The notes beneath the pieces are model-generated. The model was given only the letters and a program-made list of their open reading frames with translations. It was not told where the DNA came from and searched no databases. 64,000 nt of DNA from Neptuniibacter caesariensis (GTDB taxonomy: Bacteria > Pseudomonadota > Gammaproteobacteria > Pseudomonadales > Balneatricaceae). The stretch's first letter is position 1. Every line of letters begins with the position of its first letter. Below are positions 1,704 through 31,126 of the stretch, piece by piece. Location of the stretch: contig NZ_CH724125.1 in NCBI RefSeq assembly GCF_000153345.1, positions 48,617 through 112,616 of the forward strand, in the 5' to 3' direction. A program made the position numbers and the translations under genes.

Positions 1704-3497
1704 ATGAGCCTTTATAAGAGTGTAGAGAAAGCGGTCTTTAACACTTTGACCAAAAAAATAGTCGGCAATGTCCTGTTTCTTCTCCTGCCGCATGTTGTTC
1801 TGTTAGTTGTCGGTTTTAACCATTTTGAAAAGCTCGAAGCAGGTCTTAAACAGGCCGAAAGTGGTGGCGCTTCTCTGGAGGTACTTCAGGCCCACCTGGA
1901 CTCTTTCTGGCTATATGGATCACTAACCGTCGCTTTTGCATTGATTTCCGGTCTGTTCACCATCTTTTTCATGCGTCACTTGTTTCTGAAACCTATCGAA
2001 GCAGTTACAGATGTTTTGCGCGCAATTAAGGATAAGGATGGAGATATCTCAGCGACACTGCCTGAATATACCTACGATGAAATATCCGATATGGCGGAAA
2101 GCTACAATGGATTCTCCGATAGCCTGAAATCGATGATAGCTGAAAGCCGCCGTCGTAGCGTGAACGTTGCTTTATGTTCTACCCGATTACAAAAAGTATT
2201 GATCGAAGCGCAAGGTTCAGCGACTAAGCAGGAAGAGCAGGCGCAGAAAGTCTTTCAGTCATCCCAGGAAGCGACTCAGGCGATCGATAATATTGCGGGC
2301 AGTACCTTGGAAATATCTGAACGTAATTCTCGTAATCTTGATGAGATCAGAACCTCTAGTACTGAGCTGGGTCGTGTTCAGACTCAGGTCGGAGCAGTTC
2401 GTGCCCAGGTAACCGATTTTCAGGATACCGTACACAAGCTCGAGCAGAATTCGAAAAATATCACTGAGATCCTTGGTATGGTTAAGGACTTCTCAGATCA
2501 GACTAACTTACTGGCATTAAACGCATCTATCGAAGCAGCCCGTGCAGGTGAAGCGGGTAGGGGCTTCTCAGTAGTGGCTGATGAGGTACGTAACCTGTCG
2601 CAAAAAGTGAGTACAGCGACCAGTGAAATTGATCAGAACATAAGTCAGATGTCTTCGTTGGTGAGCAGTACTCGCACCAGTGCATCCACGATTCTTGAGT
2701 ATGTGGGATCGACTGAAGAGTTTATCGGTAGTACTAATGAGCAGTTCCATGGCCTGGTCAATGACTTTGAAGAGTTAAACAGTCAGCTAAGCAGTATCAG
2801 TGCAGCAATTGATGAGTTGGCTTACACGAACCGTGAATCGCATAACCATGTATCAGAGATCACCAACATTTCTACGGATATGCATGGTGAAATTGAACAG
2901 TCTCAGCGTTTCTCTGAAGAGCTAGAGCACTCTACCGAGGAAACTCAGGAGCTTCTGTCCCGATTTATTATTGGGTACGGTAGTTTCGAAGGGATGATTC
3001 AAACTGGCCGTAAATGGAGTAAAGAGGTTCAGGAAGGGCTGGAAAGCCTCAGTAACCGCGGATGTAATCTCTTTGATATTAATTACGTTCGCACCAATGA
3101 TGGTCAGCTACCTGAGAAATATGACACCAGTTACGCGGATCAATATGAAGCATTAATGAGGCCGATGTTTGATCGTTTCATCTCAGAAAGGCCAGAGTTT
3201 ATCTATGCGATTGCGGTAGATAAAAACGGTTATGCTGCGGCTCACCATACGAAGGTGTCGGAGCGTATCACAGGTAATTTTGAAGTTGATAATGCCAAGA
3301 GCCGTAACCGAAGAATATTTGCTGGCAACAGGGCAGAGGTTCGCCGTGCTTCTTCAACAGCGCCGTTCCTGCTTCAGACGTTTATTCGTGATACCGGCGA
3401 GATACTCAATGATCTATCGATCCCTCTTTATGTCAATGGACAGCACTGGGGAGCGTTAATCATGGGGTTTGTTCCAGATCGATTGCTTGATGACTAA
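1704..3497 (+). CDS. Methyl-accepting chemotaxis protein with C-terminal sensor-like domain
   Basis: A 597-residue chemoreceptor. Two membrane helices (about 20-40 and 70-92) enclose a periplasmic loop of only about 30 residues, so there is almost no external ligand domain. A HAMP region follows (about 92-145), then the signalling coiled coil, whose tip [19 protein letters not shown] (about 260-280) binds CheW/CheA. After the coiled coil, residues about 450-597 form a separate soluble domain with [14 protein letters not shown] and later [17 protein letters not shown], typical of PAS/Cache-like sensor folds. Sensing is therefore probably cytoplasmic. The gene stands alone and ends at a strong bidirectional terminator. 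Confidence 0.9.
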
Positions 3498-3512
3498 TAT
3501 GATCAAGGCAAT

Positions 3513-3541
3513 AAAAAACGCGGCAATAGCCGCGTTTTTTA
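3513..3541. terminator. Bidirectional rho-independent terminator
   Basis: Perfect 6-bp GC stem CGCGGC/GCCGCG with loop AATA, flanked by A6 on the left and T6 on the right, so it works for both the chemoreceptor gene on the plus strand and the response regulator gene on the minus strand. Confidence 0.92.
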
Positions 3542-3556
3542 TTGAGCCTGTTAGCT

Positions 3557-4357
3557 TTACATATCGTAATCAGTCACTAGCTGTTCAATGAGCTGTTTAA
3601 CTGTATCGTACGAAAGTGGCTTACTACAGATCGCTGAAACGCCTGCGCTTTGTACGGCAGCCAGGCGGCTTTCGTTCTGCTCACTCGTCACCATCAGAAT
3701 TGGTACCGTAGGCTGTTCGCTGTGCGAGCGAATATGTTCTATCAGCTCTTTACCGTCTACGTTTGGCATATTGTAGTCAGTGATGATCAGGTCGTATCGC
3801 GCACCATCATCGATCATTTGCAGGGCGTCTGAGCCGTCCGCAGCTGTGTCGATTGAGTGGATGGACAGCGAGTCCAGCATCTGTTTGATATAGTTCCTGG
3901 ACATAGTACTGTCATCGACGACCAAGACACGTAGCGCATCGTATTCATCCGAATCACTGTCAGACTCGAAATCAGATACGTAATCAAGGGTACTTTTTAA
4001 AGCCATTGCCATCTCTTCACGACTAAATGGCTTAGGCAATATAGCGATAGCACCTGCTTGCCTGATTGGCTCCAGATAACGGTAATGAGTTTCTGAAGAC
4101 ACAAGGAGAAAAGTAATTTTTTCCAGTGCTTCCAGTCCACGCATCTGAGTAACAAGGTCGGTACCTGTCATATCAGGAAGGTGCATTGACGAAAGAACGA
4201 CATCTGGAGGTGTGACGAGCATATGCTCAAGGGCTGGTTTTGCTTCTTCGAACTCCTCAATGTTTTCAATCCCAAAACTATTAAGGTGCCCAATAATAAT
4301 ATGCCGCTGCACCTTGGACGGTTCTATAACAGTGACATAAAGACTGCTTAATTCCAT
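3557..4357 (-). CDS. Tandem-receiver response regulator, first receiver degenerate
   Basis: A 266-residue protein made of two CheY-like receiver domains and no output domain. The second receiver (about 140-262) is canonical: LVVDDS acidic pair, ITDYNMPNVDG with the phosphoacceptor Asp, MVTSEQ, and CSKPL Lys. The first (about 5-125) has lost the acidic pair (VIEPSK) and has Ser in place of the phosphoacceptor Asp (VVLSSMHLPDMTG), though KPF is kept. It is therefore probably a pseudo-receiver that regulates or docks the active one. Such stand-alone proteins usually act by protein contact in chemotaxis or motility signalling; the convergent chemoreceptor is next door. Its partner kinase is not in the window. 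Confidence 0.88.
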   Translation of the reverse strand: MELSSLYVTVIEPSKVQRHIIIGHLNSFGIENIEEFEEAKPALEHMLVTPPDVVLSSMHLPDMTGTDLVTQMRGLEALEKITFLLVSSETHYRYLEPIRQAGAIAILPKPFSREEMAMALKSTLDYVSDFESDSDSDEYDALRVLVVDDSTMSRNYIKQMLDSLSIHSIDTAADGSDALQMIDDGARYDLIITDYNMPNVDGKELIEHIRSHSEQPTVPILMVTSEQNESRLAAVQSAGVSAICSKPLSYDTVKQLIEQLVTDYDM

Positions 4358-4830
4358 ATCTCGATATTCCTAAAGCCAAACTAGCCGAGAAAACTCAACA
4401 TCGTTAAGAGTATAGATACAGCTTAGATCATGACAGAGAAAAGTAGAGCAGAAAAGGAATAAAAGGGCGTTATACGGAATATTTTTACTGCATGTGCACT
4501 AATGTATATTTTATATGCGTTTTCTAATATTAAGTTGTTGTTCATCTGATTCTTGTTTGAATGTTCAAAGAATCACTCTTCCTAGACAGTCCCCTCGTGC
4601 AGCAATTGGGATCGACAATTGCTGTATTTTTTTATAGTTGGAACACAGCAAAAGCCCTATATAGTTGGGCTTCAAAATGGTGCTGTGCAAAAATCATGAT
4701 TTGAATCAGTAAATACTGATCTAATGATGTTATGAAATAAGAGATAGGCGTAGCATGAGTGTAGGCCGTTTGAAAACATGTCAGGAACGTTTTTCAAGCG
4801 AAAGGAAGTACCTCACAAAGGTCGTTGTCA
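4358..4830. other. Intergenic region with orphan terminator and possible small RNA
   Basis: This 473-bp gap separates the minus-strand response regulator from the plus-strand TetR gene. Its left part should hold the response regulator promoter. On the plus strand there is a weak promoter-like pair (TTTTTA at 4482-4487, TATATT at 4505-4510, 17-bp spacer) about 95 bp before a good intrinsic terminator at 4600-4632, with no gene in between. The right part holds the TetR leader and a 30-codon upstream frame. Confidence 0.5.
4600..4632 (+). terminator. Orphan intrinsic terminator
   Basis: Perfect 9-bp stem CAGCAATTG/CAATTGCTG with a 7-base loop, followed by a T-rich run on the plus strand. No protein-coding gene on this strand lies upstream for over 1 kb (the chemoreceptor already has its own terminator at 3513), so it may end a small noncoding transcript starting near 4517. 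Confidence 0.7.
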
Positions 4831-14463: not shown

Positions 14464-14949
14464 ATGAAAAAAATGATTTGGGGTTTGGCGGTTTCTTCTT
14501 TGTGCCTTTCGCTTTCGGCGCACAGTGCAAACCCGGTGTGGTTGGAAGGTAAAACGGCAACTGAATACAGTGTTGATGTTTATCACAGTCCTACCTGTGG
14601 TTGCTGCAAAGGTTGGATCGACCATCTTGAAGATCACAACTTTGTGGTAAACGCGATCGAAACCAACGATGTCTCCCCGATCAAACAGCGTTTAGGCGTG
14701 CCGCCTCAAGCTGCTTCTTGTCACACTGCGGTGGTTAACGGTATTGCGATTGAAGGGCATGTTCCGGCGCAGGATATTAAGTCGCTATTAGCCAAACAAG
14801 ATCACAATGTTCGCCTGCTAACGGTGCCAGGAATGCCATCAGGTGGGCCGGGTATGGATATGCCGGGCGCTAGAAAAGATCAGTTTAAGGTTTATGCTGT
14901 TTCTGAAGAGAATAAAATCAGTGTCTATAACAGCTACGATAACTACTGA
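14464..14949 (+). CDS. DUF411 family periplasmic protein
   Basis: A 161-residue exported protein with a signal peptide (to about residue 22). The DUF411 core includes YHSPTCGCCKGW near residue 42, where CxCC lies in a thioredoxin-like turn, then SCHTAVV and GIAIEGHVPA. Relatives are often linked with copper and other metal handling and sometimes named CopG-like; no enzyme activity is established. The last 40 residues, rich in Gly, Pro and Met (PGMPSGGPGMDMPG), are another candidate metal contact. It probably belongs with the MBL-fold gene just upstream, and ends at a strong terminator. Confidence 0.88.
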   Translation: MKKMIWGLAVSSLCLSLSAHSANPVWLEGKTATEYSVDVYHSPTCGCCKGWIDHLEDHNFVVNAIETNDVSPIKQRLGVPPQAASCHTAVVNGIAIEGHVPAQDIKSLLAKQDHNVRLLTVPGMPSGGPGMDMPGARKDQFKVYAVSEENKISVYNSYDNY

Positions 14950-14967
14950 CAGCTATCTGTAGATAAT

Positions 14968-14997
14968 AAAAAAGGCGGGTTAACCCGCCTTTTTTAA
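14968..14997. terminator. Bidirectional rho-independent terminator
   Basis: Stem AAGGCGGGTT/AACCCGCCTT with A-rich left and T-rich right flanks. It ends the DUF411 transcript on the plus strand and can end the yceJI transcript on the minus strand. Confidence 0.92.
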
Positions 14998-15006
14998 TGG
15001 GCAAAC

Positions 15007-15580
15007 TTACTTACGAATGCCTTCGATGTTCAGATCCAGATAAACGGTTTCTGAAGCAGGGCCCAGGTTGTAAGTCATGCCAAATTCACGTGGCTTAATC
15101 TCTGTTGTGCCAGAGAAGCTGCGCGGTAACCACCCCATGGATCTTTACCTTCACCTACTTTCTCAACTGAATCGCGATCTCTTTGCTTGTTCCGTAAAGG
15201 GTCAGCATACCTTTCATTACGCCGCCACCGTTTGCATCTGGCGTGAAAGAAGTACTTTCAAAAGACGCTTTAGGGAATTTTGCAACATCCAGGTAGTCGC
15301 CGCTACGGATGTGCTTGTCACGCTCAGCGTGGTTAGAGTCAAAGGATGTCACATCGATATCCACTTTAACTGAAGACGCTTCTGGCTTCTCTGCGTCATA
15401 GCTAAACTCGCCTTCAAACGTATTGAAGCGGCCTGTTAGCCAGCTAGTACCCAGGTGGCTGATACGAAACTCGATAGACGCGTGAGCACCTTTAGTGTCG
15501 ATTACGTAATCAGCTGCGTAAAGAGGTGATACAGTCAGCAAAGAGGCAAGCGCCAGTCCTTTAACAATCTTAGTTTTCAT
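15007..15580 (-). pseudogene. yceI: yceI broken by two single-base frameshifts
   Basis: YceI-family periplasmic lipocalin-like protein, a family that binds amphiphilic or isoprenoid ligands. The N-terminal 135 residues read normally: signal peptide ending LYAA, ISHLGTSWLTGRF and DSNHAERDKHIRSGDYL. The frame then stops at 15155. The missing C-terminus is present in two other frames: EKVGEGKDPWGGYRA (about 15122-15168) and FSGTTEIKPREFGMTYNLGP onward to a TAA at 15007. Each junction (about 15161-15168 and 15113-15123) needs one extra base, and both fit loss of a G from a GG pair. The rest is undamaged, so either recent inactivation or two sequencing errors is possible. It follows yceJ with an ATG/TAA overlap. 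Confidence 0.85.
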
Positions 15581-20095: not shown

Positions 20096-20206
20096 GGTGG
20101 CCCTGCTGGTCCTTCCGCAATGATAAATCGTGAACCTGGTCAGGCCCGGAAGGGAGCAGCCACAGCGGTGGATTCATGTGCCGGAATGTGGCTGGTGGGG
20201 TCATCT
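20096..20206 (+). ncRNA. ffs: 4.5S RNA of the signal recognition particle
   Basis: The RNA component of SRP, which binds Ffh and targets membrane proteins to the Sec translocon. The conserved domain IV is evident: CCTGGTCAGGCCCGGAAGG followed by GAGCAGCCA, and on the return strand GTGCCGGAATGTGGCTGG. The ends pair as one long hairpin (GGTGGCCC at 20096-20103 with GGGTCATC at 20198-20205, including G-U pairs), which sets the boundaries. A strong promoter lies upstream. In many gammaproteobacteria dnaX follows ffs; here an accessory insert follows instead. Confidence 0.93.
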
Positions 20207-20669
20207 CCAAAAACTCAGTAGCTAGGTTATAGAAGCTAGTCGCTAGAGAATCATTCTCCGCTTTATTCTCCAATTTACCGCTTTTGATTTTTACACGCTG
20301 AACCGGTCATTGGTTATCTGCTGCGTATTATTCTTGCCAAAAATCATCTGACTATTCTCATACCGTATATTTTTTGCAGTGGCATTTCAGTGACTGATTA
20401 TGTCATGTTTGTCAGTTCTGATTGCTTGTTTTGCTCTGAAGATTAAGTTAAAACAGTAATTAAATCAGACAGATGGAAGTCTAACGCGTGTAGATACCAT
20501 GGACCCTTGGTTTTCAAGGGGTGGGTATCCATTGATATAGCGCATGCGCGGTTTGTCACGGAAGAGTCTCGGTAATTTCTAGCTTTCCTTCCTTTTCAAT
20601 TTCTTACATCTGTTATTAAACAAATGCGGTTAGGGTAGATATACGGACCCCTGTATATACAAATGTTAA
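20207..20669. other. AT-rich gap between ffs and the accessory genes
   Basis: No gene is visible in these 463 bp. It holds a strong imperfect hairpin at 20493-20530, described separately, and close to the next gene a GTTAGGG (20629-20635) that resembles the core site at which integron cassettes join. No integrase gene, attI site or direct repeat of the ffs 3' end was found. Confidence 0.5.
20479..20556. repeat. Imperfect palindrome, possibly a degenerate attC
   Basis: ACCCTTG (20503-20509) pairs with CAAGGGGT (20515-20522), and GATACC (20493-20498) with GGTATC (20524-20529). Outer flanks GTCTAAC (20479-20485, fits the RYYYAAC core) and GCGCGGTTTG could extend the fold. The right core does not fit GTTRRRY, so this is at best a decayed integron site. 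Confidence 0.3.
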
Positions 20670-21203
20670 ATGGCAAAGGAAAGTCTTGTGCAAGATCCCA
20701 GTGATTGGATTAATCAATATATAAAAGACTCTGGAGAGGCAATTCAGAAGCTGAGTACAGATTCCCTACGAGTCACTAGTGAAGATATTCAAAATGCTTT
20801 AGTCGAAGTTTTGGATCTGAATTGCTCGACAGATCTTCTCTACATGGATCTCCCAGCAGAAAAGATCATCAAGTTGTTGTCCTCATTTGATTTTTCCAGG
20901 TTCGATCCAGAATTTATCTGCGAGGTTGCTCTAGATGAATCAATCATTCCAGAACATATTCCAATATCCCTCACTGAGCAGACCATTCGAACGAAAGGCG
21001 AAGTATGGCGGATTCACAAAAATGATGCTGATCCATTCCCCTCGAATCCTCATGCTCACAATTACCCCAAAAACCTCGTTGCCCACTTGGGCAATGGCGA
21101 CCTTTATAGAAAAAGAGAGGTTCTTGGCAAGCTAAAGAAAAAAGACTTAGTGAATCTTCGTGATCATATTAAAAATGTTAGCTTACCTAAGCTGGAAGTC
21201 TAG
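20670..21203 (+). CDS. Cassette-type protein of unknown function with PFPSNPHAH motif
   Basis: A 177-residue soluble protein I cannot name. The first 110 residues are helical and acidic. The C-terminal third carries a striking motif, WRIHKNDADPFPSNPHAHN (about 111-129), then LGNGDLYRKREVLGKL. I have the impression of this motif in scattered small proteins of accessory regions but know no function. The stop at 21201-21203 lies three bases before an attC site, the normal layout of an integron gene cassette. The start is uncertain: the ATG at 20670 has no ribosome site, whereas a GTG at 20688 has AAAGGA seven bases upstream and would give 171 residues. No membrane segment or signal peptide. Confidence 0.75.
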   Translation: MAKESLVQDPSDWINQYIKDSGEAIQKLSTDSLRVTSEDIQNALVEVLDLNCSTDLLYMDLPAEKIIKLLSSFDFSRFDPEFICEVALDESIIPEHIPISLTEQTIRTKGEVWRIHKNDADPFPSNPHAHNYPKNLVAHLGNGDLYRKREVLGKLKKKDLVNLRDHIKNVSLPKLEV

Positions 21204-21205
21204 CC

Positions 21206-21293
21206 ATTTAACAAGCGCATGTTGTTCGCCCCTTCGGGGCTGGGACCTCCGTTCCGCTGCGCTTCACTACAGCCCCAAATGCGGGCGTTAGCC
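21206..21293 (+). other. attC: Integron attC recombination site without integrase
   Basis: An 88-bp imperfect palindrome with all attC parts. The left core ATTTAAC (21206-21212) fits RYYYAAC, and the right core is GTTAGCC (21287-21293). GCGCAT (21215-21220) faces ATGCGG (21279-21284) as the L arms with an unpaired extra base. An inner 7-bp stem GGGGCTG/CAGCCCC (21236-21242, 21270-21276) is perfect. The right end CAGCCCC...GCGGGCGTTA closely resembles Vibrio-type repeats as I remember them. It sits between the cassette-like gene and the HD-GHKL gene. No intI gene is in the window, so it would be an isolated attC site. Confidence 0.8.
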
Positions 21294-21309
21294 GTTTAAT
21301 CCAGAGGAT

Positions 21310-23883
21310 ATGGAATTGTCGATAGAAAGAATAAAATATACAAAATTATGGAATCGTACATTAGGTGAGGTGAACGATGACATATACAAAGAAAAGCGTG
21401 ATGAATTAAGAATATCTTTTATTAAATTTAGAGATAATGCTACACACTTAGTTTCACAAATTTCATCGATTTTACCGGGACTAACGCAGCATGACATAAG
21501 TCATTTAGATGCTTTATGGGAAGTTGCAGATCTAATATGTGGTGATGATTATCCACTCAATCCTCTTGAAGCTTTTGTGTTTGGTGGTGCAGTATTACTA
21601 CATGATTCAGCTTTATGCTTTGAAGCTTATGATAATGGAATCGAAGGAATACGCCAGACCGATATTTGGAAAGATTCTTATGCAAGTGTTTCTGAGAATG
21701 TAACTGATGTCGCTGAAGCAGAAAAAATCGCAGACTTTTCAGCTTTGAGGGCTCTCCATGCACATCAAGCCGAGTCATTAACCGAAAAAAGCTGGGTAGA
21801 TCCTGAAACAAAATCCCCGTTATTTCTTCTAGAAAACAATACTCTTAGAAAGCACCTTGGTAAGTTGATTGGGCAAATTGCTGCAAGTCATCATTGGTCA
21901 ATTGAAGATGTTGCAAGTAAATTGCCTAATCAGGTGAACGTCCTACCAGGTTTTCCTCGAGATTGGCGAATTGACCCTATAAAAATTGCTTGTATGGTAC
22001 GTTGTGCGGATGCTGCCCACATTGATAATGAGCGAGCTCCAGATTTCCTTCATGCTTTGATAAAAAGAAGAGGAATTTCATATACCCATTGGCAAGCTCA
22101 AAACAAATTAGCGTCAGTAGATTTAGATCAATCCGATAATACTAACTCAACCCTGTTATTTACTTCCACACATAGATTTTTGGAGAACGAATCAGAAGCA
22201 TGGTGGGTTGTCTATGACACTATTAATATGATTGAGCAAGAAATTAGGTCATCTAATGCATTACTTGAGTCCAGGCAAGTTGAAACTCCTCAATTTCAAG
22301 TAAAAAGGGTTAAAGGTGTTGAATCACCAGAGTTAATGTCAAAATATGTTCAAACTGAGGGTTGGAATCCATGCATGGCAGAAGTCCATGTAGGTAACAT
22401 GGAAAATCTTGTAAGTTCGCTGGGTGGTGAGAAACTATATGGTGCGGGCTGCGATAAATTTGAAGTAATCCTCAGAGAGCTTATACAAAATTCAAGGGAT
22501 TCCATACATGCTAGAAGAGAGATCGATAAAGATTTTATTGGACAAATAACTGTTCGATTGATTAGTGATGATAATGGGGTGTGTTTATATATTGAGGACA
22601 ATGGCGTAGGTATGTCTCTGCGAGTATTAACAGGTCCTTTATTAGATTTTGGTACAAGTTTTTGGACGTCTTCTTTAGTCCAAAGTGAGTTCCCAGGTCT
22701 TCGCTCCTCTAAATTTAAATCAGTTGGTCAGTTTGGGATTGGGTTTTATTCCGTATTTATGGGGGCTGATAAAGTAAGAGTCTCTAGTAAACCATGGAAT
22801 GGAGGATCTTCAGATGTACGGCAGTTAAACTTTAATAATGGCTTGTCTTTACGGCCTCTACTTAAACATGAAATTCCCGAAGATTTCAATTCTAATATTT
22901 CTACCCAAATAAAACTGAATTTGAAGGAAGGCATATTAGAAAGCACCGATAAAGTATTAATAAAACGCAATCAAATGAGGGCTGAAGACCTTGAAGTGTC
23001 TGTAGAGGATTACATTTCATCAATATGTGCAGCGCTTGATGTTTCAGTTTATTTCTCAGTGAATGATTCAAATTGTATTGAAATTCACAAAGATATAAAA
23101 AATGAAACAGATTACAGTGATTGGTTAAAAAGAATATCTTATTCTAAGTACCAGCCCCAAACCGTTGAAAATTATATAACGACGAATATTCACAGACTAA
23201 GGCCTATTATCGATAATGATCAGTGGCATGGCTTAGCAGCAATATCCGTGGCACCAACTACAGAACAGAATTTCTTGAGCTTAAACGCTGTCGGCGGTCT
23301 TAATAGTAGCGTTCACCACCGGAGTGGGGAGCACTATATGGGATATATTGATCGTTTACCTCAATCAGCAAAAAGAGAAGGTAAAGGGTATTCTGCCTCT
23401 GATGAGGCTATAAAAACTTGGGCTTTAGAACAAGTGGAATTATTAAAAAAAGAAGGGATGCAACCATTAGATAAGTGTATTTTGGCATATAATCTTTGTT
23501 ATTTTGGGGTTGATCCAATTGATATTGGATATGTTTTTGTTATTCGGAATGATATGCCTGAATTCTTATCATTTAAGGAGTTGGCAGATCTTTCTTTAGT
23601 AGAAGATATAGTATTTGTAAAAACAGACCTTATGGAGCATATTGATTCTCATAGTCAAATTAATTCATTACCAGGTCAAACCCTCATTAAGCCCTTGAGA
23701 AATTCAAATTTTCTTTCTCTTAAAATGGAGGAAGGAATACCTGTAAAAAATTATAGTATTCTTGATTGTTTGTATCGAGAGATCGTGCAGTCTGGTTATG
23801 AGCCAAGTTTTTCTGTTGAAAAAAACATAGGCCAATCATTTATGGGAATGAATGATGGATTGGTAATCAGGTCTACAAAGTAG
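21310..23883 (+). CDS. HD domain fused to HSP90-type GHKL ATPase
   Basis: An 857-residue cytoplasmic protein with two enzyme-like halves. The N-terminal HD-type domain (about 40-260) shows HDISHLDALWEVAD, GGAVLLHDSA (about 97) and RCADAAHID (about 231-239). From about residue 380 comes an HSP90-like ATP-binding domain: N box ELIQNSRDS (Glu about 390), DNGVGMS (about 430) and GQFGIGFYSVF (about 473), nearly identical to the HtpG lid motif. The C-terminal 300 residues are unassigned. HD plus HSP90-type ATPase fusions are known from conflict-system surveys, so an antiphage role is plausible but unproven. The gene is AT-richer than its neighbours and follows an attC site, which fits acquisition. 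AGAGG is too close to the ATG; a TTG at 21316 has better spacing. Confidence 0.85.
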   Translation: MELSIERIKYTKLWNRTLGEVNDDIYKEKRDELRISFIKFRDNATHLVSQISSILPGLTQHDISHLDALWEVADLICGDDYPLNPLEAFVFGGAVLLHDSALCFEAYDNGIEGIRQTDIWKDSYASVSENVTDVAEAEKIADFSALRALHAHQAESLTEKSWVDPETKSPLFLLENNTLRKHLGKLIGQIAASHHWSIEDVASKLPNQVNVLPGFPRDWRIDPIKIACMVRCADAAHIDNERAPDFLHALIKRRGISYTHWQAQNKLASVDLDQSDNTNSTLLFTSTHRFLENESEAWWVVYDTINMIEQEIRSSNALLESRQVETPQFQVKRVKGVESPELMSKYVQTEGWNPCMAEVHVGNMENLVSSLGGEKLYGAGCDKFEVILRELIQNSRDSIHARREIDKDFIGQITVRLISDDNGVCLYIEDNGVGMSLRVLTGPLLDFGTSFWTSSLVQSEFPGLRSSKFKSVGQFGIGFYSVFMGADKVRVSSKPWNGGSSDVRQLNFNNGLSLRPLLKHEIPEDFNSNISTQIKLNLKEGILESTDKVLIKRNQMRAEDLEVSVEDYISSICAALDVSVYFSVNDSNCIEIHKDIKNETDYSDWLKRISYSKYQPQTVENYITTNIHRLRPIIDNDQWHGLAAISVAPTTEQNFLSLNAVGGLNSSVHHRSGEHYMGYIDRLPQSAKREGKGYSASDEAIKTWALEQVELLKKEGMQPLDKCILAYNLCYFGVDPIDIGYVFVIRNDMPEFLSFKELADLSLVEDIVFVKTDLMEHIDSHSQINSLPGQTLIKPLRNSNFLSLKMEEGIPVKNYSILDCLYREIVQSGYEPSFSVEKNIGQSFMGMNDGLVIRSTK

Positions 23884-23944
23884 TCCGTAGAGTAAACGGA
23901 TAACTAGCTATTAATCAAGGGTGTTAGCTATACCATCTTAAGTC

Positions 23945-23978
23945 CAAAAAAACCGCCGATAAACGGCGGTTTTTTTAT
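23945..23978. terminator. Bidirectional rho-independent terminator
   Basis: Stem ACCGCCG/CGGCGGT with loop ATAAA, flanked by A7 on the left and T7 on the right. It ends acnA on the minus strand and the HD-GHKL gene on the plus strand. Confidence 0.93.
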
Positions 23979-23995
23979 ACAAGCTAAAAGCTGGC

Positions 23996-26713
23996 TTAGC
24001 TATTCGCAGCGATAATATCGCGCAGTACCATTGGCAGGATACCTTTGTGGCGGATCTGATCCAGCTCAGAGGAGGTATCAACACGGGAGGTTAGCTCCAA
24101 CTGCTGAGATGAGCCGTCTGCTCTGTTAATGGTCAGGCTAACTGTGCCGCGTGGCTCCAGAGTATCGATACCGTTCAGGTCGAAGGTTTCGGTACCGTCC
24201 AGGTTCAGCGATGCACGTGTTATACCTTCAGGCATCTGTAGCGGTAATACGCCCATGCCGACCAGGTTGGATTTGTGAATACGCTCAAAGCTTTCTGCGA
24301 TAATCGCTTTAACGCCCAGCAGTGCAGGGCCTTTCGCCGCCCAGTCACGGGAGGAACCAGTACCATACAGCTTACCGCCGAATACCACAGTCGATGTGCC
24401 TTCGTTACGGTAGCGCTCAGCGGCATCGTAGATAGACATCTGTGCCGGAGCACTGTCAGATGAGTAGTAGTTAGTTACCGCACCTGTGGTGCCTGGCAGT
24501 AGCAGGTTTCGGGCTTTGACGTTACCGAAAATACTGCGCAGCATCACGTGGTGGTTACCACGACGGGCACCCAATGATGTCATGTCTTCGTCAGCTACGC
24601 CTTGCGAGCTCAGGTATTCACCTGGAGGGGAATCCGGACGAATACGGCTTACCGGCGAAATATGGTCGGTCGTTGTGTTGTCATCACACATTACCAGCAT
24701 ACGCGCAGCCGAGATGTTGTTCAGTGAATCTTTAGGTGTTTCCAGTGAGAAACCATCGAAGAATGAGATCTCCTGAATGTAGGTAGAATCCGGCGCCCAG
24801 TCATATACAGGGCCGGTAGGTGATTCCAGGTTCTGCCATGTAGCAGGGCCGTCCAACGCGTTTTCATAGGTTTCACGGAACGCTTTCGGATCCATGCACT
24901 CAAGCATGGTTTGGCTGATTTCAGCGTTGCTCGGCCAGATATCCTTTAGGTAGACATCGTTGCCTTTAGCATCCTGACTGATCGGTTCTTTAGTGACATC
25001 GATATTCACGTTGCCAGCCATCGCCATTGCCACTACCAGTGGTGGCGACATCAGGAAGTTGGTATCAACATCCGGGTGGACACGGCCTTCGAAGTTACGG
25101 TTACCGGACAATACCGACGCGGCGATAATGTCGTGGTTTTGCAGGGCGTCTTCGATGCTTGGTGCCAGCGGACCTGAGTTACCTACACAAGTGGTACAGC
25201 CGTAACCTGCCGTATTAAAGCCCAAAGCATCCAGGTGTTGCTGCAGCCCTGCCTTAGTCAGGAAGTCTGTTGCAACAGGGGACCCCGGAGCCAGGGATGT
25301 TTTAACGCCGTCAGGTACCTTCATGCCCAGTTCGTTGGCTTTCTTCGCCAGCAGACCTGCGGCAATCAATAGGCCAGGGTTAGAGGTGTTGGTGCAGGCG
25401 GTAATCGCGGCAATCACGATATCGCCGTCTTTTAGTTCTCGCTCAGGCAGCGGTGCGAAAATACCCGCTTCGTCTGCCTTCATTGGCGTAACTTTTACAA
25501 CTTCTGGGTTGCGCTCGCCTTCAGCAGCCGCTTTACGGAATACATTACCGATCTCAGCCAGTGGAAGTCTGTCTTGCGGTCGTTTAGGACCTGCAACAGA
25601 AGGCTCAACGGTGGATAGATCAAGCTGCAGCAGATCCGTGTAGCGAGGCAGCGCCTGACCCTGTTTCCATGCCATGTTCTGCGCTTTGTAGAATTCCAGT
25701 GGCAGGTCGCCGTCTCTGCCCGTTGCTTTCATATAATCGGCAGAGATCTTATCGAATGGGAAGAAGCCCATGGTCGCGCCATATTCAGGCGACATGTTGG
25801 CAATCGTCGCACGGTCTGGCAGGGACAGGTTGGCACAGCCTTCACCGACGTATTCAACGAACTTACCGACGACGCCACCTGGGAAGTTACGTAGCATTTC
25901 AGTAATGGTTAGCACCAGGTCAGTTGCGGTCACACCTTCTCTTAATGCGCCGGTTAGTTCTACGCCGACTACTTCAGGTGCCAGCATCTGCATAGGCTGG
26001 CCTAGCATGGATGCACCGGCTTCAATACCACCAACACCCCAGCCAACAATACCCAGTGCGTTTGCCATAGGCGTGTGGCTGTCCATACCGATCAGCGTGT
26101 CGGGGATCATCAGGTTATTGTTGTTTAGATAGCCCTGAGCCAGATACTCAAGGTTTACCTGATGCACGATACCGGTTTGTGGCGGAATAATGCGGATAGT
26201 TTCAAAGGCCTGTGCGCCCCATTTCAGGAAGGCATAACGCTCTTTGTTTCGTTCAGCTTCCAGCTCGCCATTGATTCTTAACGAAGCAGGGCTACCGGTG
26301 TTATCCATTGTGACTGTGTGGTCGATAACCAGATCTGCACGAACCAGGGGTTCGATAATCGCCGGGTCCAGATCCATGCGCTGTACGGCTGAACGCATCG
26401 CTGCAAAATCAACAATCGCAGGCGTGCCACTCAGGTCATGCATGATTACGCGACCGGCAGTGAAAGGAATCTCAATCGGCTCTTTGCCTTGATGTTCAGT
26501 CCAGCTACCCAGCGCTTTAACCTGCTCAGCCGTTATGCCGTTCTGGCCAACATTGCGAGCGATACCCTCAAGAATAGGGCGAAGGGAAAAGGGGAGTGCA
26601 TCAAGGTCGATACCAAACTGCTCAGCCGTTGCTGGCAGACTATGGTAGTTGTGCTCTGTACCGGGGAGTGTTTTAACAGAGCTGGATGGATCGAAATCGA
26701 TTGGGCTTGTCAT
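23996..26713 (-). CDS. acnA: Aconitate hydratase A
   Basis: A 905-residue iron-sulfur enzyme converting citrate to isocitrate through cis-aconitate in the TCA cycle. Cluster cysteines are visible in ITACTNTSNPG and in GYGCTTCVGNSGPL; IGMDSHTPM and the C-terminal swivel domain motif YGTGSSRDWAAKGP are intact. Length and order match the AcnA/IRP-type rather than AcnB. The N-terminal third deviates somewhat from the E. coli enzyme, so a related dehydratase such as AcnD is a weaker alternative; no prpF or other methylcitrate gene is nearby. It is divergent from acnB across about 600 bp. In E. coli AcnA is the stress form. Confidence 0.9.
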   Translation of the reverse strand: MTSPIDFDPSSSVKTLPGTEHNYHSLPATAEQFGIDLDALPFSLRPILEGIARNVGQNGITAEQVKALGSWTEHQGKEPIEIPFTAGRVIMHDLSGTPAIVDFAAMRSAVQRMDLDPAIIEPLVRADLVIDHTVTMDNTGSPASLRINGELEAERNKERYAFLKWGAQAFETIRIIPPQTGIVHQVNLEYLAQGYLNNNNLMIPDTLIGMDSHTPMANALGIVGWGVGGIEAGASMLGQPMQMLAPEVVGVELTGALREGVTATDLVLTITEMLRNFPGGVVGKFVEYVGEGCANLSLPDRATIANMSPEYGATMGFFPFDKISADYMKATGRDGDLPLEFYKAQNMAWKQGQALPRYTDLLQLDLSTVEPSVAGPKRPQDRLPLAEIGNVFRKAAAEGERNPEVVKVTPMKADEAGIFAPLPERELKDGDIVIAAITACTNTSNPGLLIAAGLLAKKANELGMKVPDGVKTSLAPGSPVATDFLTKAGLQQHLDALGFNTAGYGCTTCVGNSGPLAPSIEDALQNHDIIAASVLSGNRNFEGRVHPDVDTNFLMSPPLVVAMAMAGNVNIDVTKEPISQDAKGNDVYLKDIWPSNAEISQTMLECMDPKAFRETYENALDGPATWQNLESPTGPVYDWAPDSTYIQEISFFDGFSLETPKDSLNNISAARMLVMCDDNTTTDHISPVSRIRPDSPPGEYLSSQGVADEDMTSLGARRGNHHVMLRSIFGNVKARNLLLPGTTGAVTNYYSSDSAPAQMSIYDAAERYRNEGTSTVVFGGKLYGTGSSRDWAAKGPALLGVKAIIAESFERIHKSNLVGMGVLPLQMPEGITRASLNLDGTETFDLNGIDTLEPRGTVSLTINRADGSSQQLELTSRVDTSSELDQIRHKGILPMVLRDIIAANS

Positions 26714-26871
26714 TATTTATTCCTCACGCAGATTGGGCGCTGCCGAATCTACAACTTTTATTGCACGAGCCTTCGTCCTTACAGAGTCCGAGTTGCTCGA
26801 TTTTTTTGTCAGTCGTATTTCAGCCGTCAAGCGAACCGCTATTTCCTGCATTATAAGTGTTAACTTTTCAG

Positions 26872-26885
26872 GATTGTCGACAATC
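26872..26885. promoter_or_regulatory. Perfect palindrome, candidate GntR-type operator
   Basis: GATTGTCGACAATC is fully symmetric, about 160 bp upstream of acnA. TTGTCGACAA-like sites are typical operators of FadR-subfamily GntR regulators that control organic acid metabolism. The regulator is not in the window. Confidence 0.45.
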
Positions 26886-27240
26886 TTAGCCGATAGGCGT
26901 CTTAAATCAAGTGATAGAGGAATACTTTCGTCTGAATTACATACAATCTTCGACTATTTGCTAGTGTATTTAGATGGAGATGAATAATTTTTAGATAACT
27001 ATAAGGTCGTTTTTACGGCCACCGCTACATTTATATGGCTAATCAGGCGTGGAGGGGCGGGTCACAATTGTATATATCAGTGATCGTAGAGGTGGTTTTT
27101 GCGGCTCCTGTGACGCAAAAAAGGAGAAATATTCTTATAAAATAAATACGTACAACCAATGTATACCCTGCTGAAGGCATTGATTTTAGTACTATTTTTT
27201 TTATTTATACCGACTATAAGCCTCATTTAAATAGTTTTGA

Positions 27241-27270
27241 TTGAGGTGCTTGGTACTTTTTTTTTATAAT
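27241..27270 (+). promoter_or_regulatory. Promoter of acnB
   Basis: TTGAGG (27241-27246) and a perfect TATAAT (27265-27270) with an 18-bp spacer, followed by a likely start near 27277 and a leader of about 37 bases before the ATG at 27314. Confidence 0.6.
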
Positions 27271-27313
27271 CCGCACCAAATCATAACTAGATCTAAGTGA
27301 GACGTTGGACGCT

Positions 27314-30109
27314 ATGAGCTACTATTCTGAGTACCTAGAAGAAATTGAGGTTCGTAAAAAGGACCTAGGTCTGAACCCAAAGCCAATCGATAGTGCTGAA
27401 TTGCTATCTGAAATCATTGCCCAGATTAAAGACACGGGTAATGCAGAGCGCGAAGCTTCTCTAAACTTCTTCATCTACAACACTCTACCTGGTACTACTC
27501 CAGCGGCTGGCGTTAAAGCGGCTTTCCTAAAAGACATCGTTCTGGGTAAAGAAACTGTTGCTGAGATCTCTCCAGAGTTCGCTCTTGAGCAACTGTCTCA
27601 CATGAAAGGTGGTCCTTCTGTTGAAGCACTACTGGACATCGCACTGTCTGACGATGCTCAGGCTGCGGCTGCAGGTGAAGTTCTGAAATCTCAGGTATTC
27701 CTGTACGATGCTGACACGACTCGTCTGGCTGACGCTTTCAAAGCGGGCAATGCGATCGCTAAAGAGATTCTGGAAAGCTACGCGAAAGCTGAGTTCTTCA
27801 CTAAGCTGGATGACATTCCAGAGAAAATTAAAGTTATCACCTACATCGCAGCTGAAGGTGATATCTCTACTGACCTGCTTTCTCCAGGTAACCAGTCTCA
27901 CTCACGTGCTGACCGTGAACTACACGGCCTGTGCATGATCTCTCCAGAAGCTCAGCAAGAAATTAAGCAGATGGGTGAAGACAACCCAGACGCTAAAGTG
28001 ATGCTGATCGCTGAGAAAGGCACCATGGGTGTAGGTTCTTCCCGTATGTCTGGTGTAAACAACGTTGCATTGTGGGCAGGTGAGCCAACTTCTCCATACA
28101 TCCCATTCGTAAACAACAAGCCGGTTGTAGCGGGTACTAATGGTATCGCGCCTATCTTCCTGACAACTGTTGGTGTAACTGGCGGTATCGGTCTTGACCT
28201 GAAAAACTGGGTTAAGAAAACTGACGCAAACGGCGAAGTAGTTCGTGATGCTAACGGCGACCCAGTACTTGAAGAAGCATACTCTGTTGCGACAGGTACA
28301 GTTCTGACGATCGATACTAAAGCTAAGAAGCTGTACAACGGCGACGAAGAACTGGCTGATATCTCTGATGCTTTCACACCACAGAAAGTGGAATTCATGA
28401 AAGCAGGTGGTTCTTACGCGGTAACATTCGGTAAGAAACTGCAGACGTTTGCTGCTGAAACACTGGGCGTTGAAGCACCAGCAGTTTACGCACAGTCTAA
28501 AGAGATCTCTCACGAAGGCCAGGGCCTGACAGCTGTTGAGAAGATCTTCAACCGCAACGCTGTTGGCGTGACTTCTAAGACTCCTCTGCACACAGGTTCT
28601 GACGTTCGCGTTAAAGTGAACATCGTAGGTTCTCAGGACACTACTGGTCCTATGACTTGTCAGGAACTGGAAGCGATGGCTGCTTCTAAAATCTCACCAA
28701 GTGTTGACGGTGCTTTCCAGTCTGGTTGTCACACAGCGTCTGTATGGGATAACAAAGCTAAGGCTAACACGCCTAAGCTGATGGCATTCATGAACGCATT
28801 CGGTGTAATCACTGCACGTGACCCGAAAAACGTTTACCACTCAATGACTGACGTTATTCATAAAGTACTGAACGACATCACTGTTGACGATCGTGCGATC
28901 ATCATCGGTGGTGACTCTCACACCCGTATGTCTAAAGGTGTTGCGTTCGGTGCTGACTCCGGTACGGTTGCGATCGCATTGGCGACGGGTGAAGCAGCAA
29001 TGCCGATCCCAGAGTCTGTAAAAGTAACCTTTAAAGGTTCTATGAAGCCACACATGGACTTCCGTGACATCGTACACGCGACTCAGGCGCAGATGCTGAA
29101 GAAGTTCGCTGGTGAAAACGTATTCCAGGGCCGTGTAATCGAAGTACAGATCGGTACTTTGCTGGCTGACCAGGCGTTCACGTTCACTGACTGGACTGCA
29201 GAAATGAAAGCGAAAGCTTCTATCTGTATCTCTACTGATGAGACGCTGATCCAGTCTCTGGAACTGGCTAAGTCCCGTATCCAGATCATGATCGACAAAG
29301 GCATGGAAAACGAAGCAGGTATGCTGCAGGGTCTGATCGATCTGGCTGACAAGCGTATCGCTGAAGTTAAATCTGGCGAAGCGCCTGCGCTGGCTCCGGA
29401 CGACAACGCTAAGTACTACGCTGAGCTGGTTGTTGACCTGGACGCAATCGATGAGCCAATGATCGCTGACCCAGACGTAAACAACGAAGACATCTCTAAG
29501 CGTTACACGCACGATGTGATCCGTCCTACTTCTTACTACGATGGCCGTCAGGTTGACCTGGGCTTCGTTGGTTCTTGTATGGTTCACAAAGGCGACATGC
29601 AGATCATCGCTGCTATGCTGCGTAACCTGGAGAAGAACGGTCCAATCACATTCAAGGCACCTCTGGTTGTTGCTCCACCAACGTACAACATCGTTGACGA
29701 GCTGAAAGCAGAAGGCGATTGGGACATTCTGGCTAAATACGCTGGTTTCACGTTCTCTGATGAGAATCCGAAAGAAGAAGCACGTACTAAGTACGAAAAC
29801 ATTCTGTACCTAGAACGCCCAGGCTGTAACCTGTGTATGGGTAACCAGGAGAAAGCAGAAGCAGGTGACACTGTACTGGCTACTTCTACTCGTCTGTTCC
29901 AGGGCCGTGTTGTAGAAGATACTGCTGAGAAGAAAGGTGAGTCTCTGCTGGGCTCTACTCCAATGGTTGTTCTGTCTTGTATCCTGGGTCGTTTCCCGTC
30001 TCTGGAAGAGTACAAAGAAGCCGTTGAAGGTATCAACCTGACTCGATTCGCTCCACCAAGCGAAGACTTAAGCGTTGCTCCTCAGGCGATCCCAGCTGCA
30101 CGTATCTAA
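27314..30109 (+). CDS. acnB: Aconitate hydratase B (bifunctional 2-methylisocitrate dehydratase)
   Basis: The main TCA-cycle aconitase, about 931 residues. AcnB order is clear: an N-terminal HEAT-like domain, a swivel domain with KGTMGVGSSRMSGVNN, then the Fe-S catalytic domains with GGDSHTRMSKGV and the cluster motif RPGCNLCMGNQ. Family members also hydrate 2-methyl-cis-aconitate. The ATG at 27314 is preferred to an in-frame TTG at 27305. Codon use is strikingly biased to preferred codons (CTG, GGT, GCT, CGT), as in highly expressed genes, and unlike acnA. It has its own promoter and terminator. Confidence 0.96.
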   Translation: MSYYSEYLEEIEVRKKDLGLNPKPIDSAELLSEIIAQIKDTGNAEREASLNFFIYNTLPGTTPAAGVKAAFLKDIVLGKETVAEISPEFALEQLSHMKGGPSVEALLDIALSDDAQAAAAGEVLKSQVFLYDADTTRLADAFKAGNAIAKEILESYAKAEFFTKLDDIPEKIKVITYIAAEGDISTDLLSPGNQSHSRADRELHGLCMISPEAQQEIKQMGEDNPDAKVMLIAEKGTMGVGSSRMSGVNNVALWAGEPTSPYIPFVNNKPVVAGTNGIAPIFLTTVGVTGGIGLDLKNWVKKTDANGEVVRDANGDPVLEEAYSVATGTVLTIDTKAKKLYNGDEELADISDAFTPQKVEFMKAGGSYAVTFGKKLQTFAAETLGVEAPAVYAQSKEISHEGQGLTAVEKIFNRNAVGVTSKTPLHTGSDVRVKVNIVGSQDTTGPMTCQELEAMAASKISPSVDGAFQSGCHTASVWDNKAKANTPKLMAFMNAFGVITARDPKNVYHSMTDVIHKVLNDITVDDRAIIIGGDSHTRMSKGVAFGADSGTVAIALATGEAAMPIPESVKVTFKGSMKPHMDFRDIVHATQAQMLKKFAGENVFQGRVIEVQIGTLLADQAFTFTDWTAEMKAKASICISTDETLIQSLELAKSRIQIMIDKGMENEAGMLQGLIDLADKRIAEVKSGEAPALAPDDNAKYYAELVVDLDAIDEPMIADPDVNNEDISKRYTHDVIRPTSYYDGRQVDLGFVGSCMVHKGDMQIIAAMLRNLEKNGPITFKAPLVVAPPTYNIVDELKAEGDWDILAKYAGFTFSDENPKEEARTKYENILYLERPGCNLCMGNQEKAEAGDTVLATSTRLFQGRVVEDTAEKKGESLLGSTPMVVLSCILGRFPSLEEYKEAVEGINLTRFAPPSEDLSVAPQAIPAARI

Positions 30110-30127
30110 TCTTAGATAACGTGACTA

Positions 30128-30158
30128 ACAAAAAGCCCTGATTATTCAGGGCTTTTTT
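30128..30158. terminator. Terminator after acnB
   Basis: AAAGCCCTGA/TTCAGGGCTTT stem with a TTA-centred loop and T6 on the plus strand. The A-rich left flank lets it also serve the convergent minus-strand gene at 30167. Confidence 0.92.
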
Positions 30159-30166
30159 GTTTGTGG

Positions 30167-31126
30167 CTACTTAACCGTAAATGTCCCGATGCAAGAAGGA
30201 TCAATATTGTATTCTGTAGAATCGCCTGATCTCATTTCGACAAAATAGTTACCGGATGCTGTGTAGTTCTTTGTAGAGAGATTAAACTGCCACTGCCCGT
30301 CAATATATTCAAATTGGTTGCCTTCAAATGACTGCCCAGGTGAGAGCGAATCGACTTCTACAGCGCCTTCAGGTGTTGCGGAAGAGGAGTACATAACTGA
30401 TATTACTGGAGCTGAAGTAATGTCAGTGTTTGTTATTTCAGCTCCATTCCCATCCGTAAGAATTGCTTTGTAGGGTAGCGCTCTGTTTTTCTTAACAGAA
30501 ACGTTTTTATCCATCGGAGCAGAGAAGCCGGTACAGGTATATGAATCTGCTGTAGCAGCGGTGACATCAATTTTATCAAATGAGAATCTTGAAAGGCCTG
30601 TTGCACCAATCAGACTGATAGCCTTAAGGTTTTCAAAACCACTTAAAATAAAAGATTCTAATCCCCCTGATACATCGACAGTTACTTCAACGGTTTTCAG
30701 TAAATTTTCATCATAGCCAGCGATCGTAATACTTTGTGCTGCATCGTAGCGATAGGCTTTAGAAAGTGATAGGCCTGAAAGCGTAAAGGTGGCTGCGGTG
30801 TCAGTTGGTTTTATAATTACCGTATGTAACAGGCTGGCTCCTGAATTTAGTGATAGATAATTTTGCTGGTAGTTAATCCAGCGCGAATCATCGTTGCCTA
30901 ACCCTGCATTGAACTGTTGTAGGTATGTAGCATTTTGAACGCATGCTTCGATACTTGGGTACGAAGAACATCGTCTTGTTGATGTACTGAAGCCTTGTTC
31001 AATCACTTCTCCGTACACGTAGCCCTTTGGTACAGCTTCATAGTCTAAAACAACAGCTTGAGTTGTCATGGGAAGGCTTAGCGCTAGTCCAGAAATAACC
31101 ATCTTTAAGTTATAATTTTTATTCAT
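30167..31126 (-). CDS. Secreted PxKF-domain protein under c-di-GMP riboswitch control
   Basis: A 319-residue exported protein. A Sec signal peptide (1-24, cut near TTQA) precedes a beta-rich domain (about 27-195) with one Cys pair (RCSSYPSIEAC) that resembles extracellular jelly-roll domains. After TCTGFSAPMDK comes a C-terminal Ig-like domain with PYKAILTDGNGAEI and a final CIGTFTVK, matching the PxKF pattern seen in bacterial surface and matrix proteins. No enzyme motif was found. A c-di-GMP-I riboswitch lies in its leader, so expression should follow c-di-GMP level; a role in biofilm matrix or adhesion is an inference from that. Confidence 0.75.
   Translation of the reverse strand: MNKNYNLKMVISGLALSLPMTTQAVVLDYEAVPKGYVYGEVIEQGFSTSTRRCSSYPSIEACVQNATYLQQFNAGLGNDDSRWINYQQNYLSLNSGASLLHTVIIKPTDTAATFTLSGLSLSKAYRYDAAQSITIAGYDENLLKTVEVTVDVSGGLESFILSGFENLKAISLIGATGLSRFSFDKIDVTAATADSYTCTGFSAPMDKNVSVKKNRALPYKAILTDGNGAEITNTDITSAPVISVMYSSSATPEGAVEVDSLSPGQSFEGNQFEYIDGQWQFNLSTKNYTASGNYFVEMRSGDSTEYNIDPSCIGTFTVK

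Follow-up and report, generated by a model that had tools for sequence, protein, structure and literature searches.

HD-CE joined to an Hsp90-type clamp

We examined one gene in a 64,000-nucleotide stretch of the Neptuniibacter caesariensis genome (contig NZ_CH724125.1; the whole stretch is hereafter the window), where it lies between ffs and acnA. Its product of 857 amino acids had been described in an earlier note, made from the sequence alone, as an HD-type domain joined to an HSP90-type ATPase and as a candidate undescribed antiphage protein. Both domains were recovered. The HD-type domain is HD-CE of Pfam (PF24391), matched at residues 55–313 with E 3.2e-58 and 197.9 bits against a cut-off of 27, and the motifs quoted for it (HDISHLD, LLHDSA, RCADAAHID) are present in the translation. 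The same is true of GQFGIGFYSVF, the proposed GHKL ATPase lid resembling that of HtpG. Here HATPase_c_3 matches residues 384–508 marginally above its cut-off (25.3 versus 25 bits, Pfam), and the HtpG profile NF003555 matches residues 385–504 (E 1.5e-15, NCBIfam). Solved structures matched by sequence are Hsp90 chaperones, aligned in their N-terminal ATPase domain (among the best 60 of 152 matches, and of 151), while the HD region gave nothing significant against PDB sequences, with five chance matches and a best E of 0.53.

The roughly 300 C-terminal residues that the earlier note had left unassigned could be assigned: by predicted fold, residues ~546–840 correspond to the Hsp90 middle domain. 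This call rests on fold, since the sequence comparison with the HtpG profile is sound over the ATPase domain only, and the model has low confidence in the ATPase lid (~residues 441–480). The fold alignment over the N-terminal and middle domains (N+M) reaches ~residue 840, and up to ~526–550 on the Hsp90 side; with 17 residues left beyond it, the C-terminal dimerisation domain of Hsp90 is absent from the protein. The protein therefore has in common with Hsp90/HtpG the N-terminal ATPase motifs and the N+M fold, but differs in the missing dimerisation domain and in the HD domain placed in front. On the missing domain, and on a score of 56.8 bits against an equivalog cut-off of 371, identity as HtpG was rejected.

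Conservation was read from an alignment of 23 full-length relatives, counting the window protein; 20 belong to the main clade, and three are distant HD-CE+HATPase proteins. Truncated proteins (L035, L036, L038), a duplicate (L122), plasmid fragments (L042, L043) and HD-CE proteins lacking HATPase were left out. In the HD part, H61, H65, H98, D99, R147, H150, H194, R231, D234, D239 and H260 are the same in all 23. They include every metal-type residue of the H...HD...D pattern (H61, H65, H98, D99, H150, H194, D234), whose loss among homologues would, by the earlier note, have counted against its reading. In the ATPase part, the catalytic glutamate E390, proposed earlier as the N-box residue, is equally invariant, as are N394, D397, D430, G434, G473, G476 and G478; G432 is kept in 22 of 23, and T532 is replaced by serine in two. 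S193 and W196 differ in the three distant relatives. G678 and R689 are conserved in 20 of 20 main-clade proteins and gapped in the distant three; the segment around R689 resembles the catalytic-arginine motif of Hsp90, and the profile alignment did not pair the two. Both halves appear conserved in the manner of active enzymes.

In PADLOC, matches were limited to short and weak ones to the Tiamat protein TmtA, which likewise has a GHKL ATPase (E 1.5e-5); identity as Tiamat was rejected because the best match scores 20.9 bits and spans 94 of the 1655 positions in the profile. The GHKL-type Shedu protein VcSduA is also a single defence protein, and its GHKL ATPase has been proposed to govern an effector domain (PMC12137116); that effector is a C-terminal PD-(D/E)xK nuclease, whereas that of the window protein would be the N-terminal HD domain. 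Fusions in the Orientia mobilome likewise merge an HD hydrolase part with a HATPase part, but their HD is of SpoT type and they are named as merged gene parts (PMC10732058). The claim that the protein is undescribed stood in part: HD-CE is curated and named in Pfam, and PADLOC (2023) holds no dedicated model for an HD-CE plus Hsp90 N+M layout. An antiphage protein of this kind was not found in the open-access literature searched, as far as the accessible parts go (for example PMC11090510, PMC7824862, PMC9519451, PMC9425974 and PMC3710099); Burroughs and Aravind 2020 (J Bacteriol) may describe it, so we do not claim the layout as unpublished.

A sporadic, mobile gene with prophage-borne relatives

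A whole-genome protein search at E ≤ 1e-20, not counting the host itself, found the gene in 5 of 397 genomes from the phylum, none of 389 from the order and 1 of 368 from the class; the three samples overlap. Of 398 phylum genomes, own genome counted, 37 have the HD-CE domain itself at E ≤ 0.001 and 17 have it above its cut-off. None of 14 control genomes has it above the cut-off, and it was found in none of 18 other relatives of the host, 10 of the same genus and some with incomplete genomes. This sporadic occurrence is the opposite of the core housekeeping distribution that, by the earlier note, would have refuted its reading.

In a one-genome-per-species collection searched with six peptide patterns, relatives of 82% and 67% identity were found in Pectobacterium aroidearum and Billgrantia pellis, respectively. 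For comparison, the host's HtpG shares 61% identity with that of Pectobacterium and 66% with that of Billgrantia. Since the Pectobacterium copy is 82% identical and HtpG only 61%, the former points to horizontal transfer; the 67% identity of the Billgrantia protein, taken alone, would not. In a maximum-likelihood tree, the window, Pectobacterium and Billgrantia proteins group with a protein from a viral contig (L119) with full support. Base composition bears out the claim that the gene is AT-richer than its neighbours: its GC content is 0.364, compared with 0.530 for acnA, 0.518 for the DUF3422 gene and 0.465 for the whole window, and in eight of nine loci compared the gene lies below the remainder of the fetched locus, Zymomonas being the exception. 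Among plasmids, 52 records matched and two (H1, H2) cover at least 80% of the query; the other matches are mostly HtpG-like, together with a distant 63% match (H3) and an N-terminal piece (H20).

A first scan of viral contigs with the single protein as query found no relative, and a profile scan of IMG/VR gave at least 27 loci (among 80 pattern-matching stretches), of which 12 match over at least 500 residues and 15 in the ATPase only, in open reading frames (ORFs) similar to HtpG. In six of the 12 (L121–L125, L127), the gene lies 33–76 bp behind an ORF of repressor type in the same orientation, and in L126 it lies 923 bp behind a repressor-type ORF. The repressor was confirmed as phrog_4 (PHROGs) in L121, L123, L124, L125, L126 and L127; that of L122, compared by ORF only, equals the L121 repressor in length and first residues. 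L123 and L124 additionally carry P2 gpA (phrog_91). L127 is the sole behind-repressor locus with an integrase seen beyond the gene, one small ORF lying in between. In L130, the gene sits between gpA and the portal gene gpQ, as does the gene for a distant HD-CE+HATPase protein in genome G258 (L074). Elsewhere it adjoins an integrase (L120) or lies ~3 kb from one (L129), 1.4 kb from a portal gene (L128) or 7 kb from a tape-measure gene (L119). Rousset et al. 2022 (PMC9122126) describe two hotspots for antiviral systems: the gpA–gpQ site in P2-like phages and, in P2-related phages, the stretch from the cI repressor to the integrase. By position, some relatives occupy these published P2-type prophage defence hotspots, and such placements are the strongest context evidence for a defence role. 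Taken together, the comparisons describe a gene that is sporadic, horizontally moved and prophage-carried. As a separate observation, the L127 contig also encodes, at 2590–4365, a protein matching the candidate defence family PDC-S49 (E 6e-23).

Other neighbourhoods were scanned for a minority of genes picked by eye, and serve as examples rather than as a rate. Zymomonas carries the gene on plasmid pZMOB03, with a TIR-NLR as the next annotated gene (PADLOC E 4.4e-44). In a second G258 locus (L034), an integrase adjoins the gene, and a 370-residue ORF 2.4 kb away matches MkoC positions 635–992 (E 1.6e-175). G913 (L037) encodes, within 9 kb of the gene, a match to HEC-05/PDC-M55C as well as a 93-residue fragment of a type I methyltransferase. 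In Nonomuraea, one ORF separates the gene from an HNH protein matching SAVED-type effectors.

HD-CE also recurs in other proteins, near the N-terminus and joined to nSTAND5 and TPR (L077, L079), WD40 repeats (L076) or HATPase (L073–L075). In L078 and L080, iHD-CE (PF24401) outscores HD-CE and is partnered by a wHTH-HSP90_Na-assoc domain. For these families Pfam names the domain only, and the partners of its other members are of the same kinds: STAND with TPR, WD40 and wHTH-HSP90_Na-assoc. Effector domains of NLR-like immune proteins show such a pattern, in which a single enzymatic domain at the N-terminus is combined with different sensor-like partners. L076–L080 are further candidate immune proteins. 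One HD-CE protein (L081) follows a gene read as a DNA methyltransferase, and another HD-CE match lies ~2 kb from a PDC-M33A protein (L082, E 5.3e-191). Separately, the HD-CE region of L073 (9423–12554) matches positions 699–877 of the PADLOC RT_UG24 profile (E 1.7e-4), which raises the possibility of an HD-CE-like domain in UG24 reverse transcriptases.

Proposed function and alternatives

The gene is mobile and its product well conserved, and it is probably conflict-related. Domains, conservation, mobility and the prophage and hotspot positions of relatives are the established ground from which we infer an antiphage role and, with it, a switch, a trigger and a substrate. On balance we favour a single-gene, mobile protein of phage defence or of prophage superinfection exclusion, in which an Hsp90 clamp would switch the HD domain. 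In Hsp90 biochemistry, ATP binding closes the clamp. The C-terminal half is an Hsp90 N+M ATPase clamp, and its ATP-driven closure would act on the N-terminal HD domain; as the C-terminal domain is missing, dimerisation would have to be provided by the HD part, the ATPase itself or a partner. A signal arising during infection would alter clamp closure and free the HD enzyme to hydrolyse a phosphoester. Its substrate would most likely be a nucleotide, which is depleted, or nucleic acid, which is cut. The infected cell would thereby cease to support the phage. Close linkage behind a repressor suggests expression in the lysogen, which would fit the exclusion of other phages.

Several observations weigh against this reading. 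The window copy is neither in a prophage nor in one of the hotspots. IMG/VR consists of viral contigs only, which makes occurrence in it unsurprising, and only the positions inside prophages carry information; the six behind-repressor loci amount to about four independent cases, because L121/L122 and L123/L125 are near-duplicates. Among 50,697 GenBank phage records there was no full relative, the eight that matched doing so in the ATPase only, and a DNA-level search of 5,426 Escherichia coli genomes gave no match for the window gene or for those of L124 and L074. Six of ten neighbours in one PADLOC scan of various loci had no match, and the large ORF next to the gene at the L033 locus likewise had none. 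Judged by eye, the two closest loci (L003, L004) do not resemble defence islands, and the Pectobacterium and Billgrantia surroundings are ordinary save for a toxin–antitoxin-like pair and an insertion sequence. Foldseek with the HD part alone returned nothing significant, its top rows being mostly unrelated helical proteins; a second structural comparison returned HD-superfamily folds, with a middling match. The antiphage role proposed earlier is partly supported by context (sporadic, mobile, prophage-borne, in some cases in hotspots), while several loci are not defence islands.

The same switch could instead act against plasmids or impose a general growth arrest. We consider this unlikely, even though relatives reside on plasmids, the window copy stands behind an integron-type site, and defence genes often target several kinds of mobile DNA: relatives in viral contigs are most often behind a prophage repressor, a setting in which exclusion of other phages is a known theme (PMC9122126). 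About as unlikely is counter-defence or signal control, where the HD domain would destroy host immune cyclic (oligo)nucleotide signals on behalf of a prophage. The gene is not confined to prophages, being found also in a chromosomal insert and, next to a TIR-NLR, on a plasmid; a constitutive eraser of signals would need no ATP-gated clamp; other HD-CE proteins have the build of NLR immune proteins; and the HD fold match is no better than middling. Least probable of all is an ordinary housekeeping protein, such as a chaperone-coupled phosphohydrolase acting in stress metabolism. Housekeeping proteins frequently contain Hsp90 and HD domains, and the window gene lies between two core genes, ffs and acnA, but the absence of HD-CE from the 18 relatives searched, the low GC content relative to the surroundings, the 82% identity across orders and the prophage locations all speak against it.

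A more specific version, which we put forward as a long shot, is a chaperone-derived immune switch: the Hsp90 N+M clamp would sense a phage-made client or phage RIIA, itself of GHKL N+M build, and closure would activate a phosphodiesterase-like HD effector, with RIIA serving as a viral decoy that forms mixed clamps with prophage-encoded switches. RIIA proteins of T4-like phages share this build with the window protein in a Foldseek comparison with viral proteins (E ~7e-6 to 5e-4, rows named RIIA), and several annotations label phage RIIA a protector from prophage-induced early lysis. They differ in being genes of lytic phages, and in the rows listed the HD domain lies outside the aligned part. 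If the switch and HD enzyme proposed here are real, bacteria and their prophages would have adapted the conformational cycle of Hsp90 to switch an HD hydrolase upon infection, and sensing by prokaryotic Hsp90-like ATPases other than HtpG would become directly testable, with one 2.6 kb gene, catalytic residues in both halves (H98/D99, E390) and prophage-borne relatives as material.

The insert and its attC-like site

The gene sits in an insert, as the earlier note had presumed: pieces of the insert have no match in the DNA behind ffs of eight relatives, and homology resumes at 23946–24009 in six acnA loci compared (of 13 non-own loci fetched). It holds a 177-residue ORF, an attC-like site and the HD gene (Table 1).

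Table 1. Coordinates of features in the window.
Feature	Position	Strand	Basis or remark
ffs, small signal recognition particle (SRP) RNA; left edge of insert	20104..20200	+	Rfam RF00169, 74.1 bits
Accessory insert, ffs to acnA 3' end	20201..23945		Comparison with relatives; left edge approximate
177-residue ORF, probably the cassette gene preceding the attC-like site	20670..21203	+	ORF call
Integron attC-like site	21201..21302	+	Similarity to plasmid arrays
Coding sequence, 857 residues: HD-CE, Hsp90 N-terminal and Hsp90 middle domains	21310..23883	+	ATG start
HD-CE domain, residues 55–313	21472..22248	+	Pfam PF24391
Hsp90-type GHKL ATPase domain, ~residues 360–545	22387..22944	+	Pfam, NCBIfam, conservation, fold
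Hsp90 middle-domain-like region, ~residues 546–840; conserved G678, R689	22945..23829	+	Fold

The 177-residue ORF has no Pfam, NCBIfam or PADLOC match at E ≤ 1; its residues 101–155 share 53% identity with a protein from a Cupriavidus plasmid. Positions 21209 to ~21295 are 76–78% identical to stretches directly behind catB11 in plasmid arrays (15 listed matches of 40 records), in keeping with the attC site noted earlier. In one plasmid record opened, the matching stretch begins at the catB stop, within an aacA4-catB-qacEdelta1-sul1 array; we take it to be an attC, which the record does not annotate. Folding of the region gave z-scores of 0.19 and −0.24, no support, so the call rests on similarity. 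The HD gene starts ~17 bases past the GTTAGCC end of the site, apparently positioned as a next integron cassette would be. A crude pattern scan revealed no separate attC for the HD gene, but it gave no sites in the window stretch and none even in a visible integron array. The host does have an integron: its integrase intI (TIGR02249, E 3.5e-125) lies on the same contig ~350 kb away (L103, G000:C5:405000-424900, 14484–15455), accompanied by a divergent row of 11 small ORFs with attC-like spacers which, by eye, are of the same build as the window site.

No repeat of the ffs 3' end of at least 12 bases occurs elsewhere in the window. The DUF3422 gene adjoins ffs, as in the window, in seven of the eight relatives opened. 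Integrase-like ORFs (tyrosine type, by eye) begin within 75 bases of ffs in two of the eight (L094, 532–1875; L096, 2952–4262), for which reason ffs may be an integration site in the host's group. In three of the eight (L089–L091), a homologue of window gene 31675 lies directly behind ffs. Because ffs and this gene are neighbours there, the acnA–acnB block (window 23996–31126) appears displaced here, as a rearrangement or a larger insertion between the two.
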